Of a DNA stretch of 64,000 nt, positions 42,116 through 58,027 are shown piece by piece. Position 1 is the stretch's first letter. Each line of letters opens with the position of its first letter. The notes below the pieces were generated by a model. That model did not search any database and was not told the origin of the DNA. It worked only from the letters and a program-made list of their open reading frames with translations. Origin of the DNA: Pseudobutyrivibrio ruminis CF1b (GTDB lineage Bacteria > Bacillota > Clostridia > Lachnospirales > Lachnospiraceae); the NCBI RefSeq assembly GCF_000424005.1, contig NZ_AUJB01000008.1, positions 372,001-436,000 of the forward strand, in the 5' to 3' direction. The position numbers were made by a program, and so were the translations under genes.

Positions 42116-42202
42116 ACTTCTTGACTTTAACACTTGAAAGTGATATCAATTTAAATTAGTACTGTTTATTAAACATAGTTTTATTTTTTGAGTAGAGAAG
42201 AT

Positions 42203-42835
42203 ATGGCAAAAGTTGAATTTACTGAGGTTACAACAGATTCATTTGTAGGAAATAATTTAGACAAACAGGAACAGGATACCACAATCAATAAAGATGAGTT
42301 AGGTATATCTGAAGGTACAAATAGTGATGCTGTTGTGCATGCTTATATCGTATTTACGAATGACATTTCTATTGATGAAGGCATTGGTACTATTGAAGAA
42401 AAGGTTTGTAATGGTCAAACCCTTAAAGTTATCAGAAGAGATGATTCTGGCAATGCAGTAGTAGCTGTTATTTCACAGGCAGAAGCTAAATCAATTGAAC
42501 AGTTATCGCTAGTGTCATCTGTAAAGATTGATACAGGTGTAGAGACTACAAATACTGATAAAAAAAAAGATGCTACAAATGAAACAGTAGAGACAGCAAA
42601 TAAGACAGAAGAGAAGACAGATGAGAAGGTAGAAGCACAAGAAACAGAAGAGACATCAAATACTGATTCACAATCAGTTATAAGCAACGATATTACTTCA
42701 GAGACAACAACTGAAGTTCAGGACAACAATTTAGATACTAGTATTAAAACAGGGGTCACTTTTCCAATTGTAATAGCGGCACTTTTAGCTGTAGCTATTC
42801 TAATCGGAATTATTATAAAGAAAACCAATAGATAG
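42203..42835 (+). CDS. Tail-anchored acidic protein with possible protease-propeptide-like domain
   Basis: 210 residues. No N-terminal signal peptide, a ~75-residue folded-looking part (~33-108, AYIVFTND ... VVAVISQAEAKSIEQLSLVSSVKID), a long Thr/Glu/Asn low-complexity region (~110-175) and one C-terminal membrane helix (~183-204) ending KKTNR. The folded part loosely resembles the I9-type propeptide/inhibitor fold of subtilases, including the final valine-rich strand, and the next gene is a subtilase; this is inference. ATG 42203 is preferred to TTG 42188, though neither has a strong ribosome binding site. The lack of a signal peptide in front of a surface-like region suggests the N-terminus may be lost. 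Confidence 0.6.
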   Translation: MAKVEFTEVTTDSFVGNNLDKQEQDTTINKDELGISEGTNSDAVVHAYIVFTNDISIDEGIGTIEEKVCNGQTLKVIRRDDSGNAVVAVISQAEAKSIEQLSLVSSVKIDTGVETTNTDKKKDATNETVETANKTEEKTDEKVEAQETEETSNTDSQSVISNDITSETTTEVQDNNLDTSIKTGVTFPIVIAALLAVAILIGIIIKKTNR

Positions 42836-42904: not shown

Positions 42905-45900
42905 ATGAGAAGGAACTGGATACCTAAAAAGGTATTGTCTGTAATTCTGGCAGCCGCCATGACAATGTCGCCAGCACTTACAGCACTTGCTAGTCCAGTT
43001 GACGAGTCAGCAGAGGTAGCCGTCGAAGCAGCTGCTTCAGAGGAGGCTGTTGAAGCCGCTTCAGAAGAGTCAGATGAGGCCGAAGATGTTGAAGCATCAG
43101 AGGAAGAGACTGCAGAGGTTGAAGAGACATCAGATGCTGAGGAGCCACTGTTTGAGGAAGTAGATCCTCAAGAAGAAGGTCTTGTTGATCCTAAGGAAGC
43201 TATCGCAGGGGAGGAAGTTGAAGCACCTGTAGAAGCTCAGGATCCAGAAGAACAGACCAGAGTTATTATTGTTATGGAGGGCGACAGCGTCCTCGACAAG
43301 GGATTCGACACAGCAGATTTAGCAGACAACAAGGCTGCTATGAAGGCCGCTGATAAAATCGAAGCTCAGCAGGAGAATGAAGTAAAGAAAATCGAGAGAG
43401 AAGCTCTTGACGGAGAAGCTCTTGAGGTTAACTACAATTTCTCTATCTTAACAAATGCTATTTCAGCTGATGTAGCATTTAAGGACATTGAGGAGATTGA
43501 AAAGGTTGACGGAGTTGCAGCTGTATATGTAGCAGCACAGCATGACCCACAGGTAGAGGCAGAGCCTAATACAATCACTTCAGGTGACATGGTAGGCAGC
43601 TACAACACATGGACAGCTGGTTACACAGGAGCAGGAACAAGAATCGCTGTAATCGATACAGGTCTTGATATTGATCATCCATCTTTTGATGGCGGTGCAT
43701 TCGATGCTCACCTTAAGGAGACAGCAGAAGCTGCAAGCAAGACTGTAGCTGATTATGATCTTCTTGATAAGGAAGAAATTGATAACGTATTACCAAATCT
43801 TAATGCGTTCAAGAGAGATGCTGATATCACAGCAGATACTCTTTACAACAACGAGAAGGTAGCATTTGCATTTAACTATGTAGATTCAAACCTTGATATT
43901 ACACATGACAATGATGATGAGGGAGACCATGGTACACATGTAGCTGGTATTTCTCTTGCAAACACTTATGTACCAAGTGCAACTTCAGCAACAGGTTATG
44001 ATAAGCAGGCAGCAGGCGTTGTAGGTATCGCTCCAGATGCACAGCTTATTGTAATGAAGGTTTTCGGTACAAACGGTGGTGCATACACAGATGATTATAT
44101 GGCAGCTATTGAGGATGCAATTCTCCTTAAGGCTGATGCTGTAAACCTTTCACTTGGTTCTTCAGCTGCTGGTGAGTCATCTGATGTAGAAGGTTATATC
44201 AATGATATTTTCAAGAAGCTTGAAGGAACAAGTACTGTAGTTTCTATCTCAGCTGGTAACTCAGGTCGCTGGTCAGATAGCTCTCAGTATGGAGTAAACT
44301 TAAGCAAGGATGTAAACCTTGATACAGTTGGCTCACCAGGTTCATACTTCAATGCTCTTACAGTAGCTAGTGCTGTTAACTCAGGTTTAACATCTTTCTA
44401 TTTTGCTACTACAGATGATAAGCATGTATTCTTTGCAGATGGTTCAGATTCACTTGCACCACATTTCTATGAGCTTGATACAACAGCTGATCAGAGTGGT
44501 GTTGAGTATCCATTCGTATACTTTGATGGTATCGGTGAAGCTTCTGATTATGAAGGTGTAGATGTTAAGGATAAGGTAGTACTTGTATCTCGTGGTTCTA
44601 TCACATTTGCTCAGAAGCACATGAACGCAGCAGCAGCTGGTGCTAAGGCTTGTGTAATTTACAATAACCAGCCAGGTACAATCAGCATGACAATGCAGGG
44701 CTCTGATGCAACTATTCCAGTATGTTCTATCACACAGGCTGATGGACAGGCTGTAGCTGCAACAGGTAAGCAGGTCGCTGAGGGCGTTTACGAAGGAACA
44801 ATCAAGGTAACATCACTTCCTGAGACAGTAAGAGATGTTGCAGATGGTTACACAATGAGTGATTTCTCATCAGTTGGTGTTCCTGGTACACTTGATCTTA
44901 AGCCAGAGATTACAGCTCCTGGTGGAAATATCTTCTCAACAAGAGATAATGGTTCTTACGGACTTATGAGTGGTACTTCAATGGCTGCTCCATCAATCGC
45001 TGGTCAGAGTGCACTTGTTCAGCAGTACATTCGTGAGAATGATCTTGCAGAGTTAAATGGTGTTTCTGTACGTACACTTGCTCAGTCACTCCTTATGAGT
45101 ACAGCATCACCATTATATGAAGGAAATGACAGAGAAAACGGTCTTGAGTATTCTCCACGTGCACAGGGTGCAGGTCTTGCAAACGTTCAGGATGCTGTTT
45201 CATCACCTTCATATATCCTTGTTGGTGACAAGGAAGGAAATGATGGTAAGGTAAAGGCTGTTCTTGGTGATGATCCATCAAAGACAGGTTCTTACTCATT
45301 CGACTTTGACATTTACAACATGGAGGTTGAGCCACAGTACTATGTACTTGATTCAACAGTATTAACAGAGGAGCTTTATGATAAGCAGGGTACAACATAC
45401 TTCTCTGGCACATCACATAAGCTTAACCCAGCTGTAACACTTACAGCTGATGATACAAAGCTTGTATATGACCTTAACGATGATGGTAAGGTAAATGCAA
45501 AGGACCGCAAGGTTCTTCTTCAGGTAGTAAATGGTACAAAGTCAGTAGCAATTGTTGAGAGCAACGAAGAATACTTCGATTTCAACAAGGATGGCGTTGT
45601 AAATACAAAGGATGTTTACACCTTTGCTAAGGCAATCAAGGGTAACGCAGATGTAAATCTTGGCCTTGAAGTTGTTGAAGTTAAGGACAGCACAAAGATT
45701 TCTGTTAACATCAACCTTTCAGAGGAGGATAGACAGTATCTTGCAGGCTTCGAAAATGGTATGTATGTAGATGGATTCATCTATGTAAATGGTACTGTAG
45801 ATCTTTCAGTTCCATTCCTTGCTTTCTATGGAAGCTGGGCTGATTCTCCAATGTATGAAGACTTTGATTTCATGGAGTACTGGCACAATGAAGATTATGA

Positions 45901-47158
45901 TGCAGTTACATACTCTGGTGTTCAGAGAACAAACTTCCTTTCAATCTTCCCACTTGGAATGAATAATGAGAACTACTACGTTCCTAACTACTTCACAGAT
46001 GATGCTAAGTACATTGCTGATAGAAATGCAATCAGCTCAGAGAATGGCACATACCTTGGTTCTCAGTACTACACATTAATCAGAAATGCTAGCAGAGTTG
46101 TTCTTACAATTAAGGATAAAGAGACTGGCGAGAAGTACTTTGAGAAGGTTTCAAAGGGCGAGAATTTCGCTGAGTTCTATTATGCAAGCAAGGGTAGATG
46201 GATGGAAACTCTTGCAGCGCAGGAACTTAACTGGGCTGGTACAGATGCTGAAGGCAACCCACTTCCAGATGGAACACAGGTTGATATTACACTTCAGGCA
46301 ATTCCTGCATACTATGATGATGTTGAGGATGTAACAACACTTACAGCTCCAGGCATGTACCTTACAACTCCAATGACAATTGATAACACAGCTCCAGCTG
46401 TTGTAGATGCTGTTAAGGGTGAGGATGGCAAGTATGACCTTACATTATATGATAATCGTTATACTGCTTCTGTACTTGTAATTGGTAGCGATAAGGAAAC
46501 AATCATCGGCAAGTATGCAGTAAATCAGGAGACACCAGATGAGGATATTACAATCTCTATCGATGCTCCAGAAGATGTATTCTATGTAGACGTTATTGAC
46601 TACGCTATGAATAAGTCAGTATATCGTTTCAACAATACTGGTCACGCTGATACAAAGTATGTTTCAGAGCTTACAGTAGATAAGGATGAAGTTGAGCTTC
46701 AGGTAGGCGAGAAGGCACAGGTTACAGCTACTGTTGGTCCTAAGTGGTTAGCAGAGGGCTACAATCGTGTTGTTTGGATTAGTGATGACAGCCGCGTTGC
46801 TTCTGTTTCTCAGTCAGGTGTAATCACAGCTAAGAAGGCTGGAGAGACAACACTTACAGTTTATACTGTAGCTACAGATAAGAGAGGTAAGCACCTTACA
46901 GCTGAAGTAAAGGTAAAGGTTGTTGATTCAAAGGATGAAGATGCTGAGGACACAAAGGCTTCTGAAGATGAGAAGAAGGCTGATGATGTTAAGGCAGAAG
47001 AGAAGGTAGATTCTAAGAAGTCAGAGTCAGATGATGATGAGACAAAGGAAGAAGCTACAGAAGAGACTACAGATGATGCTACAGAAGAAGAGACAGAGGA
47101 ATCAGAAGAGGATTCTGAAGTAGTAGAGGACCAGTTAGGAGGAGAGAATGATGAATAA
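42905..47158 (+). CDS. Large secreted subtilisin-family (S8) protease with internal dockerin-like module
   Basis: 1,417 residues. Signal peptide (1 to ~29, LAS-PV), acidic Glu/Ala region (~32-115), propeptide (~118-215, VIIVMEGDSV ... GVAAVYV), S8 catalytic domain (~228-745) with Asp251 (VIDTGLD), His342 (DHGTHVAG) and Ser692 (SGTSMAAPS), and a protease-associated insert (~495-630), the lactocepin/C5a-peptidase layout. Fn3-like sequence follows, interrupted by two dockerin-type calcium loops, DLNDDGKVNAKD (856-867) and DFNKDGVVNTKD (892-903). Further: more beta-sandwich sequence, a BIG2 domain (~1252-1340) and a long acidic tail without LPXTG or membrane helix. The next gene overlaps it by 11 bases and encodes a cohesin-like protein. 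AGGGAGG precedes the ATG. Confidence 0.93.
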   Translation: MRRNWIPKKVLSVILAAAMTMSPALTALASPVDESAEVAVEAAASEEAVEAASEESDEAEDVEASEEETAEVEETSDAEEPLFEEVDPQEEGLVDPKEAIAGEEVEAPVEAQDPEEQTRVIIVMEGDSVLDKGFDTADLADNKAAMKAADKIEAQQENEVKKIEREALDGEALEVNYNFSILTNAISADVAFKDIEEIEKVDGVAAVYVAAQHDPQVEAEPNTITSGDMVGSYNTWTAGYTGAGTRIAVIDTGLDIDHPSFDGGAFDAHLKETAEAASKTVADYDLLDKEEIDNVLPNLNAFKRDADITADTLYNNEKVAFAFNYVDSNLDITHDNDDEGDHGTHVAGISLANTYVPSATSATGYDKQAAGVVGIAPDAQLIVMKVFGTNGGAYTDDYMAAIEDAILLKADAVNLSLGSSAAGESSDVEGYINDIFKKLEGTSTVVSISAGNSGRWSDSSQYGVNLSKDVNLDTVGSPGSYFNALTVASAVNSGLTSFYFATTDDKHVFFADGSDSLAPHFYELDTTADQSGVEYPFVYFDGIGEASDYEGVDVKDKVVLVSRGSITFAQKHMNAAAAGAKACVIYNNQPGTISMTMQGSDATIPVCSITQADGQAVAATGKQVAEGVYEGTIKVTSLPETVRDVADGYTMSDFSSVGVPGTLDLKPEITAPGGNIFSTRDNGSYGLMSGTSMAAPSIAGQSALVQQYIRENDLAELNGVSVRTLAQSLLMSTASPLYEGNDRENGLEYSPRAQGAGLANVQDAVSSPSYILVGDKEGNDGKVKAVLGDDPSKTGSYSFDFDIYNMEVEPQYYVLDSTVLTEELYDKQGTTYFSGTSHKLNPAVTLTADDTKLVYDLNDDGKVNAKDRKVLLQVVNGTKSVAIVESNEEYFDFNKDGVVNTKDVYTFAKAIKGNADVNLGLEVVEVKDSTKISVNINLSEEDRQYLAGFENGMYVDGFIYVNGTVDLSVPFLAFYGSWADSPMYEDFDFMEYWHNEDYDAVTYSGVQRTNFLSIFPLGMNNENYYVPNYFTDDAKYIADRNAISSENGTYLGSQYYTLIRNASRVVLTIKDKETGEKYFEKVSKGENFAEFYYASKGRWMETLAAQELNWAGTDAEGNPLPDGTQVDITLQAIPAYYDDVEDVTTLTAPGMYLTTPMTIDNTAPAVVDAVKGEDGKYDLTLYDNRYTASVLVIGSDKETIIGKYAVNQETPDEDITISIDAPEDVFYVDVIDYAMNKSVYRFNNTGHADTKYVSELTVDKDEVELQVGEKAQVTATVGPKWLAEGYNRVVWISDDSRVASVSQSGVITAKKAGETTLTVYTVATDKRGKHLTAEVKVKVVDSKDEDAEDTKASEDEKKADDVKAEEKVDSKKSESDDDETKEEATEETTDDATEEETEESEEDSEVVEDQLGGENDE

Positions 47159-47951
47159 GAATTTAAGAAGAGCAGTCGTTCTCGGTATGGCAGCAATTAC
47201 ATTACTTACTGGAATACCTGCTACACCAGTTTTAGCTGCAGAGAAGGCACCTGTTCATACATTAGTGCAGTCTACAGGTAAGGGCGACAGCCAGAAAGTT
47301 ACTGTAAAGGTAACTTTAGATAAGACAACTGTTACAGATGGTAGAGTTGCTGTTGAATATGATCCAGCTGTTCTTGAGCTTAAGAGCGATTCAGAGGGAA
47401 TCAAATTCGCTGATGCAGATGTTAACAAAGCATTTGAGGATGGAGCTTCAAAGGGAGTTGCATATGCCTTCGTTGGTGATGCTCCAAAGTCTGTTAAGGG
47501 AACTCTTATGACTGTACAGTTTACAGTTAAGAAGGGACTTCAGTCTCAGAAGACAACAATTGGAACAAAGGTTTATGGCATTAATAATGAAGAGGCAGCA
47601 GTTGTTGAAGAGACAGTTTTAGAGGATGTAGTAGAGGTTGGAAGACCGAAGCTTAAGAAGCCTTCAATCAGTGGAATAGATCAGACACTTCTTGGCGTTC
47701 TAGTAAGGTGGAATAAGGATGCTAACGCTGATGGATATGTTGTATATCGCAGCACATCAAAGAATGGTAAGTACACAAAGCTTGCTACTGTAAGTGGTGT
47801 TAACGGTTATTGGAATCTTTCAGTAGAAAATAACAAGACATACTACTACAAGGTGGTTTCATACCAGGGAAGTGGCAAAGACAGAGTATATTCAGAGGAG
47901 TCTGCACCTGTTTCAATTAAGGTAAAGAAGTTCTTCGGATTATTCGGCTAA
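47148..47951 (+). CDS. Secreted cohesin-like plus Fn3 protein
   Basis: 267 residues: signal peptide (1 to ~30, PVLA-AE), a ~130-residue domain (~36-166) with the cohesin pattern VTVKVTLDKTTV, VAVEYDPAVLELKS and GTLMTVQFTVKKG, then an Fn3 domain (~172-258; VRWNKDANADGYVVYRS ... YYYKVVSY). No anchor or enzyme motif. It overlaps the subtilase gene by 11 bases with AGGAGG inside that gene, so the two are translationally coupled. The natural reading is that this protein binds the dockerin-like module of the protease. Cohesin assignment rests on motif pattern, and other members of that beta-sandwich superfamily are possible. Confidence 0.75.
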   Translation: MMNKNLRRAVVLGMAAITLLTGIPATPVLAAEKAPVHTLVQSTGKGDSQKVTVKVTLDKTTVTDGRVAVEYDPAVLELKSDSEGIKFADADVNKAFEDGASKGVAYAFVGDAPKSVKGTLMTVQFTVKKGLQSQKTTIGTKVYGINNEEAAVVEETVLEDVVEVGRPKLKKPSISGIDQTLLGVLVRWNKDANADGYVVYRSTSKNGKYTKLATVSGVNGYWNLSVENNKTYYYKVVSYQGSGKDRVYSEESAPVSIKVKKFFGLFG

Positions 47952-57775: not shown

Positions 57776-57800
57776 TTCTTAGAATTAAATATGTTTTAAG

Positions 57801-57975
57801 AAGTATAGGTGCCTATAGATTTCGTATTTGCGAAATTGGTATGGGTGAAAAGGGAATCTGGTGAGAATCCAGAACGAAGCCGTCACTGTGTCAGGGAGTT
57901 TGTATTCATGTCACTGAGCATTGCTTGGGAAGAGAATGCAGATGATGATCGAAGTCAGGAGACCTGCCTATTCTT
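57801..57975 (+). promoter_or_regulatory. Cobalamin riboswitch
   Basis: P1 is formed by aagtatagg (57801-57809) and cctattctt (57967-57975) with one mismatch. The conserved core is clear: gggaatctggtgagaatcc (57852-57870), agccgtcactgtg, and the 3' box gaagtcaggagacctgcc (57951-57968). It is followed by a terminator-like hairpin at 58028 and sits before the tetrapyrrole uptake genes, so adenosylcobalamin or a relative should shut the operon off. Confidence 0.93.
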
Positions 57976-58027
57976 AAATTAATGATTTGCGGACTTTCGA
58001 ATCTTAATTCTTGTTTTTGTAGAATTG

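Follow-up and report, generated by a model that had tools for sequence, protein, structure and literature searches.

What does a dockerin do in the middle of a secreted protease, in a genome where the next gene encodes a cohesin-like protein? This question is raised by a locus of Pseudobutyrivibrio ruminis CF1b, which lies in a stretch of 64,000 nucleotides of contig NZ_AUJB01000008.1 (positions 372,001 to 436,000 of the forward strand; here called the window, whose own numbering is used throughout). A preliminary description of the window had proposed a cohesin-dockerin interaction used for a protease complex rather than a cellulosome. Our analysis of sequences and predicted structures suggests that the two proteins are likely to form a private, one-to-one, non-cellulosomal cohesin-dockerin pair which holds the secreted protease, probably at the cell surface. 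The features concerned are as follows.

42905 to 47158, forward strand: gene for an S8 subtilase of 1417 amino acids
45467 to 45625, forward strand: internal dockerin of the protease, residues 855-907, inserted in the A-domain (Pfam Dockerin_1, PF00404; calcium loops, structure matches and alignment)
47148 to 47951, forward strand: gene for the cohesin protein, 267 amino acids (266 if the start is 47151), with a signal peptide (by eye), a cohesin domain, an Fn3-like domain and the tail VKKFFGLFG
47250 to 47642, forward strand: cohesin domain, about residues 35-165 (Pfam, structural model, fold search and profile)
47655 to 47933, forward strand: Fn3-like domain, about residues 170-262 (structural model, fold search and profile)

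Residues 855-907 of the protease match Dockerin_1 with an E-value (E) of 4.2e-7, at 30.5 bits against a cut-off of 22.9. The two calcium-consensus loops that had been described were located by a strict pattern search: loop 1 is DLNDDGKVNAKD (residues 856-867, 45470-45505) and loop 2 is DFNKDGVVNTKD (residues 892-903, 45578-45613), both with intact ligands and both fitting D-x-N-x-D-G-x-x-N-x-K-D. No other match of the strict pattern occurs in any of the six reading frames of the window. Its nearest neighbours by sequence among solved structures are the true dockerins 6kg9 (E 5.9e-6) and 4fl4 (E 2.6e-5), with EF-hand proteins ranking behind them, from E 0.08 upward. The module is internal and not terminal, as had been claimed. 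In an alignment with relatives it occupies one site in the A-domain, where dockerin-free relatives have an uninterrupted loop, and Pfam finds fn3_5 flanking the insert on at least one side, with some matches below cut-off, in L089, L090, L092, L093, L097, L099, L100, L175 and L176 (L and G numbers are our handles for loci and genomes). In L091 fn3_5 is whole.

The cohesin gene does overlap the protease gene by 11 bases, and the product, described earlier as a secreted cohesin-like domain plus Fn3, bears this out. Pfam Cohesin (PF00963) matches it with E 2.2e-5, at 25.1 bits narrowly over the cut-off of 24.1; Pfam lists no Fn3 domain in it. When a profile of ten orthologues was compared with the PDB, positions 46-174 matched the scaffoldin cohesin 3kcp (E 7.7e-4) and positions 183-238 the Fn3-like protein 3mpc (E 5.3e-7). 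The remote counterpart L049 has a Pfam cohesin score of 40.1 bits. An AlphaFold2 model of the window protein (10 rows), with a predicted local distance difference test score (pLDDT) of 77, gives the first domain nine strands. The best match in a fold search is 2w1n (E 1.2e-8), and the cohesin 2vn5 stands at rank 31 (template modelling score 0.60 by target, root-mean-square deviation 4.9); the first domain is predicted by the model to be a cohesin fold. The second ATG, at 47151, may be the real start of the gene, which has a candidate signal for its own translation:

47137 to 47144, forward strand: probable ribosome-binding site AGGAGGAG of the cohesin gene, within the last codons of the protease gene (relatives compared)

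Among nine relatives the identical eight letters are found in five and a close variant in three, with no such site in L049.

In the 3.27 million bases of the genome PF00404 has one match at E<=1, the protease dockerin, and the cellulases of the window are therefore without dockerins, in agreement with the earlier description. PF00963 also has one match over cut-off, the cohesin neighbour, and two weaker ones elsewhere (15 and 14 bits). A cellulosome would need several cohesins on a scaffoldin and a large set of dockerin enzymes, and what was found in the genome is one dockerin and one cohesin over cut-off. The suggested use of the pair for a protease and not for a cellulosome gains support from this uniqueness, from co-occurrence and adjacency, from chains that carry both modules, and from the cohesin-like fold and profile. 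The term "protease complex" stands in so far as the pair would serve the protease, but one cohesin and one dockerin would make a two-protein and not a multi-enzyme complex.

We propose that the protease is secreted, and that the dockerin in its A-domain loop would fold with two calcium ions and plug into the cohesin domain of the protein which the overlapping downstream gene encodes. This protein would be the receptor, most likely at the cell surface, for a protease which has no anchor. No wall or membrane anchor was seen on the window protease itself, the C-terminus being acidic (..EDQLGGENDE) with no membrane helix by eye. From the sequences we infer binding, calcium dependence, stoichiometry and translational coupling of the pair.

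The same gene pair was sought in other genomes, and was found in the genus and in the genus of Butyrivibrio XPD2002. Within its own genus the dockerin-protease occurs in 12 of 29 genomes and a full-length cohesin in the same 12, adjacent and on the same contig and strand (this count excludes weak partial matches in G018 and G021 and the second match in G019). These 12 have no further dockerin at E<=0.01, the second match of G001 overlapping its first; in G008, G018 and G025, which encode dockerin proteins of other kinds, PF00963 has no match at E<=0.01. In the genus of XPD2002 the protease is present in 20 of 79 genomes, and a cohesin adjoins it in all 20 (L044 and 19 loci). At E<=0.01 PF00404 has a single match, the dockerin of the protease, in 18 of these and none in the other two, where the dockerin was detected with a custom dockerin model. 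Related post-catalytic regions, many without a dockerin, occur in 17 of 397 sampled family genomes and 36 of 391 class genomes. From the class matches 16 regions of 12 genomes were examined, most of the rest beginning after the dockerin position; G772 is apparently the same locus as G816.

The two modules were followed on a tree of 66 protease catalytic domains, a quick tree with some long branches on which module states were assigned by hand. L040, L053, L087, L100, L106, L107 and L164 (partial), L050 and L086 (repeats of L043 and L047) and G004 were left off it, while L048 and L105 are on the tree, end at contig edges and stand outside the counts. Where there is an internal dockerin and the flanks are readable, a cohesin lies beside the protease or is fused to it in 47 of 48 cases (31 of the 48 are the window locus and its closer kin, and the other 17 are remote); where there is no internal dockerin the count is 0 of 16. 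The cohesin is downstream in 34, upstream in 3 and fused in 9 (ten with L179), with at least two changes of arrangement on the tree. Because the dockerin changes state once on the tree, the association is one of co-retention and not of repeated co-gain, and its weight comes from the link surviving rearrangement.

That single change also fits a reading in which the modules do not bind each other: the dockerin would be an insert stabilised by calcium, and the cohesin protein a surface protein in its own right, with nothing but the operon in common. The degenerate loops of some dockerins point the same way. We consider this improbable, since each module is single in the genome, the link is kept through fission or fusion and relocation, and non-calcium residues of repeat 2 are conserved. 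Of 34 Pseudobutyrivibrio/Butyrivibrio-type rows (two of which, L043 and L050, are a single locus), 32 have Thr-Lys at positions 10-11 of the second repeat, while repeat 1 varies. These positions bind no calcium, and in type I dockerins they face and recognise the cohesin. In fused forms they are mostly Thr/Ser-Tyr in repeat 2. As Thr-Lys is kept in repeat 2 while repeat 1 varies, the pattern points to one preferred binding face.

A number of observations weigh against a binding pair with a surface receptor. With its single change of state the dockerin offers one independent pair, and the correlation has no statistical weight of its own. Among the 17 remote cases the cohesin is over the Pfam cut-off in six (L088, L089, L091, L092, L095 and the first protease of L096), below it in two (L176 and the second protease of L096) and called by a custom cohesin model alone in seven (L090, L097, L099, L172, L175, L178 and L180). 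This model was built from 22 sequences and its weakest accepted call has 16.7 bits; the best of 1664 decoys (reversed or shuffled open reading frames) reached 7.5 bits with it and 5.4 bits with the dockerin model. The cohesin of L179 rests on likeness to L178 (a region of L179 shares 48% identity with the cohesin region of L178, E 1e-36), on which ground L179 was no longer counted as cohesin-less, and no cohesin lies near the internal-dockerin protease of L093. The window cohesin barely clears the Pfam cut-off, and ranks 2-30 of its fold search are taken up by two-domain proteins other than cohesins, mostly animal Fn3 pairs. The L089 cohesin has 27.6 bits in one scan and is unlisted by hmmscan in two others; whole-chain Pfam scans missed the cohesins of L092, L095 and L096, and seven of ten cohesin stretches rescanned with Pfam were not over cut-off (the window clade is unaffected). 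In 10 of the 20 Butyrivibrio-type genomes, PF00963 places the neighbour over cut-off in three and below it in five, and misses it in two (G833 and G876). As for the dockerins, 5 of 53 retain at most one intact calcium loop by pattern, the two loop-pattern matches of L095 overlap, and some modules are degenerate (no Pfam match in L090, L097 and L172; 14.9 bits in L095). A structure prediction for protease residues 215-1250 (12 rows) had a pLDDT of 46.9 and was set aside. Cohesin proteins of L049 and of the window clade have no membrane helix, with a short tail instead in the window clade, and fused forms need no tether.

Some loci deserve separate mention. The L093 protease (G168) is flanked by two genes with C-terminal dockerins, and its genome has at least 15 dockerins and three cohesin matches on other contigs. 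The genomes of L182 and L184 gave no PF00963 match at E<=0.1, and both loci start within about 400 bases of a contig end. At L091 the A-domain is uninterrupted, the catalytic domain contains two dockerin-like repeats (18.2 bits with Pfam, below cut-off) and a cohesin of 32.2 bits adjoins. These repeats (L091:1370-7903, residues about 386-482), with a long linker between them, are inserted between the His and Ser motifs. With a cohesin and no A-domain dockerin, L091 had been taken as a counter-example, an objection that was dropped once the repeats were seen.

Fused protease-cohesin chains, ten on the tree and the partial L100, bring in a further reading. Here the fused C-terminal cohesin would bind the internal dockerin of its own chain, as a calcium latch that bends the stalk back on itself, or that of the next molecule, forming head-to-tail chains, and split forms would make the same contact between molecules. 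The dockerin and cohesin of these fused forms lie several hundred residues apart, and L092 and L175, with a membrane helix of their own, and L100, with SLH domains, would need no tether. However, only three of the ten fused cohesins are over the Pfam cut-off (L092, 28.0 bits; L095, 42.6 bits; the first protease of L096, 39.0 bits), and the window clade is made up of split forms. In two chains, those of L092 and of the first L096 protease, both modules exceed their Pfam cut-offs. We regard a latch or chain as possible, though not as the reading to be favoured. Equally tentatively, the internal-dockerin proteases might be a self-complementary family in which a calcium-dependent contact, latch or chains, sets enzyme shape or assembly independently of a cellulosome. 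In the Butyrivibrio lineage, a gene split or fusion would then make a separable receptor out of this contact, or undo it.

In favour of the private pair with a surface receptor, six of the seven split loci found outside the Butyrivibrio-like clade (L088, L089, L090, L091, L097 and L172) encode a cohesin protein with a C-terminal membrane helix accompanied by basic residues, and a protease without such a helix. Since the cohesin protein of the window's own clade is without one, surface anchoring is weakly inferred there. The tail VKKFFGLFG (47928-47948) is short and basic-aromatic; such tails occur on the cohesin proteins of the clade and are possibly membrane-binding. A longer aromatic tail, also possibly membrane-binding, forms the C-terminus of a GH16 enzyme at L047:215-3598.

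The missing helix, the gene overlap with its internal ribosome-binding site and an I9-like gene upstream in some relatives would all suit a cohesin protein that recognises the dockerin as a folding or secretion partner, and not as a surface receptor. This seems rather unlikely to us, given the membrane helices on cohesin proteins at six of the seven other split loci and the published cell-bound activity in strain B316 (see below). The upstream gene is present in the window as well:

42188 to 42835, forward strand: upstream gene, possibly part of the locus, with an I9-propeptide-like domain, an acidic linker and a C-terminal membrane helix

No signal peptide was seen in it by eye. When profiles were compared, its domain matched the propeptide region of the protease (E about 1e-5 for a single comparison, probability 69-81%, against at most 0.14% for four control domains), and the gene possibly encodes a stand-alone inhibitor or chaperone. 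Genes of this type lie upstream of the protease in L039, L041, L042, L044, L048, L049, L156, L157, L160, L162, L163, L166, L169 and L170. They are found at 8 of 19 Butyrivibrio-type loci, with a C-terminal membrane helix in the longer forms.

The protease consists of a signal peptide (by eye), a propeptide, an S8 domain with a PA insert, the A-domain with its internal dockerin, a Big_2 domain and an acidic C-terminal tail. Two of these are placed by Pfam as follows:

43628 to 45175, forward strand: S8 catalytic domain, residues 242-757
46661 to 46864, forward strand: Big_2 domain, residues 1253-1320

The propeptide is a weak I9 match (E 0.13, below the Pfam cut-off), the PA domain covers residues 534-616 (Pfam), and the Asp-His-Ser set is complete (DTGLD at 251, HGTHVAG at 342, GTSMAAP at 690). 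Pfam does not list fn3_5 in the window protease, where it is assigned solely via the alignment with relatives; with this assignment the Asp-His-Ser motifs, PA and fn3_5 of an S8 cell-envelope protease are all present. The closest solved structures are C5a peptidase and chemokine protease C (7edd at E 5e-50), and by sequence the enzyme is classed as a C5a-peptidase-like S8 protease. It shares the S8-PA-A-domain plan with C5a peptidase and the cell-envelope proteases, in which the A-domain is not known to carry a dockerin and wall anchors are on the protease itself. Among named organisms, the nearest relatives of the window protease occur in Pseudobutyrivibrio sp. 49, P. xylanivorans DSM 14809 and "Butyrivibrio fibrisolvens 16/4".

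A second kind of adjacent pair was seen in Lachnospiraceae, a C-terminal-dockerin protein followed by a cohesin protein, mostly with a Cadherin-like domain: L115 (G047), L082 (G091), L084 (G348), L081, L085 and L083. The Pfam cohesin scores are 26.8 bits in L082, 26.2 in L084, 23.0 in L115 and 16.9 in L083, with none listed in L081 and L085, and the dockerin protein of L082 has a weak Glucosaminidase match. A dockerin at E<=0.001 is present in 144 of 397 family genomes, many with one alone. Elsewhere in the window a cobalamin riboswitch lies at 57790-57985 (93.3 bits).

Several known systems resemble the locus in part. The cohesin-FnIII double module of Clostridium perfringens GH84C (2w1n) has the order of the window protein, cohesin then FnIII. 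In GH84C the cohesin is part of a glycosidase whose partners are other secreted glycosidases, whereas the window cohesin is a stand-alone secreted protein beside a protease with an internal dockerin. With the type I cellulosome the locus shares both module families, the window dockerin being nearest to true dockerins and the cohesin profile matching a scaffoldin cohesin; here, by contrast, one dockerin and one cohesin over cut-off were found in the genome. ScaO/ScaP of Acetivibrio cellulolyticus and Bacteroides cellulosolvens, in the part of the source at hand, have peptidase modules with cohesin and dockerin in one chain, an S8 peptidase being named in a figure legend for A. cellulolyticus. 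They differ in their PPC modules and in their hosts, cellulosome producers with many cohesins, and that part of the source mentions no A-domain insertion. In Ruminococcus flavefaciens FD-1, according to the portion of the literature available, the dockerin of a peptidase binds the surface cohesin ScaE, and internal dockerins are as active as C-terminal ones; this system differs in its cysteine peptidase, C-terminal dockerin and large cellulosome.

One member of the family appears to have been studied already. The protease of G818, a genome that is probably that of Butyrivibrio proteoclasticus B316, computes to 153.3 kDa with an isoelectric point of 4.05, and appears to be Bpr_I2629, for which the available part of the source prints 153.3 kDa and 3.8; the mismatch in isoelectric point speaks against this identification. 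According to the same part, Bpr_I2629 is up 5.8-fold on xylan compared with xylose. A published cell-bound protease activity of B. proteoclasticus B316 is attributed to it. The B316 genome paper, in the part seen, describes the strain as lacking cohesin components. A divergent cohesin gene adjoins the G818 protease, and divergent cohesins like that of the window may have been overlooked in B316.

No report of the protease-cohesin pair was found in the open-licence PubMed Central literature, subscription surveys of non-cellulosomal cohesins lying outside that scope, and PMC6344614 gave no match to protease terms. What sets the locus apart is the proposed non-cellulosomal pairing of a single protease with a single partner, in which the plug is internal and split as well as fused forms occur in some variety. 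Should the two proteins bind, there would be a testable explanation for how an anchorless rumen protease stays on the cell, as well as a small natural one-to-one affinity pair; the fused forms would show the cohesin-dockerin contact in a new, non-cellulosomal role. The pair suggests a private socket for a major protease in bacteria thought to lack cohesins.

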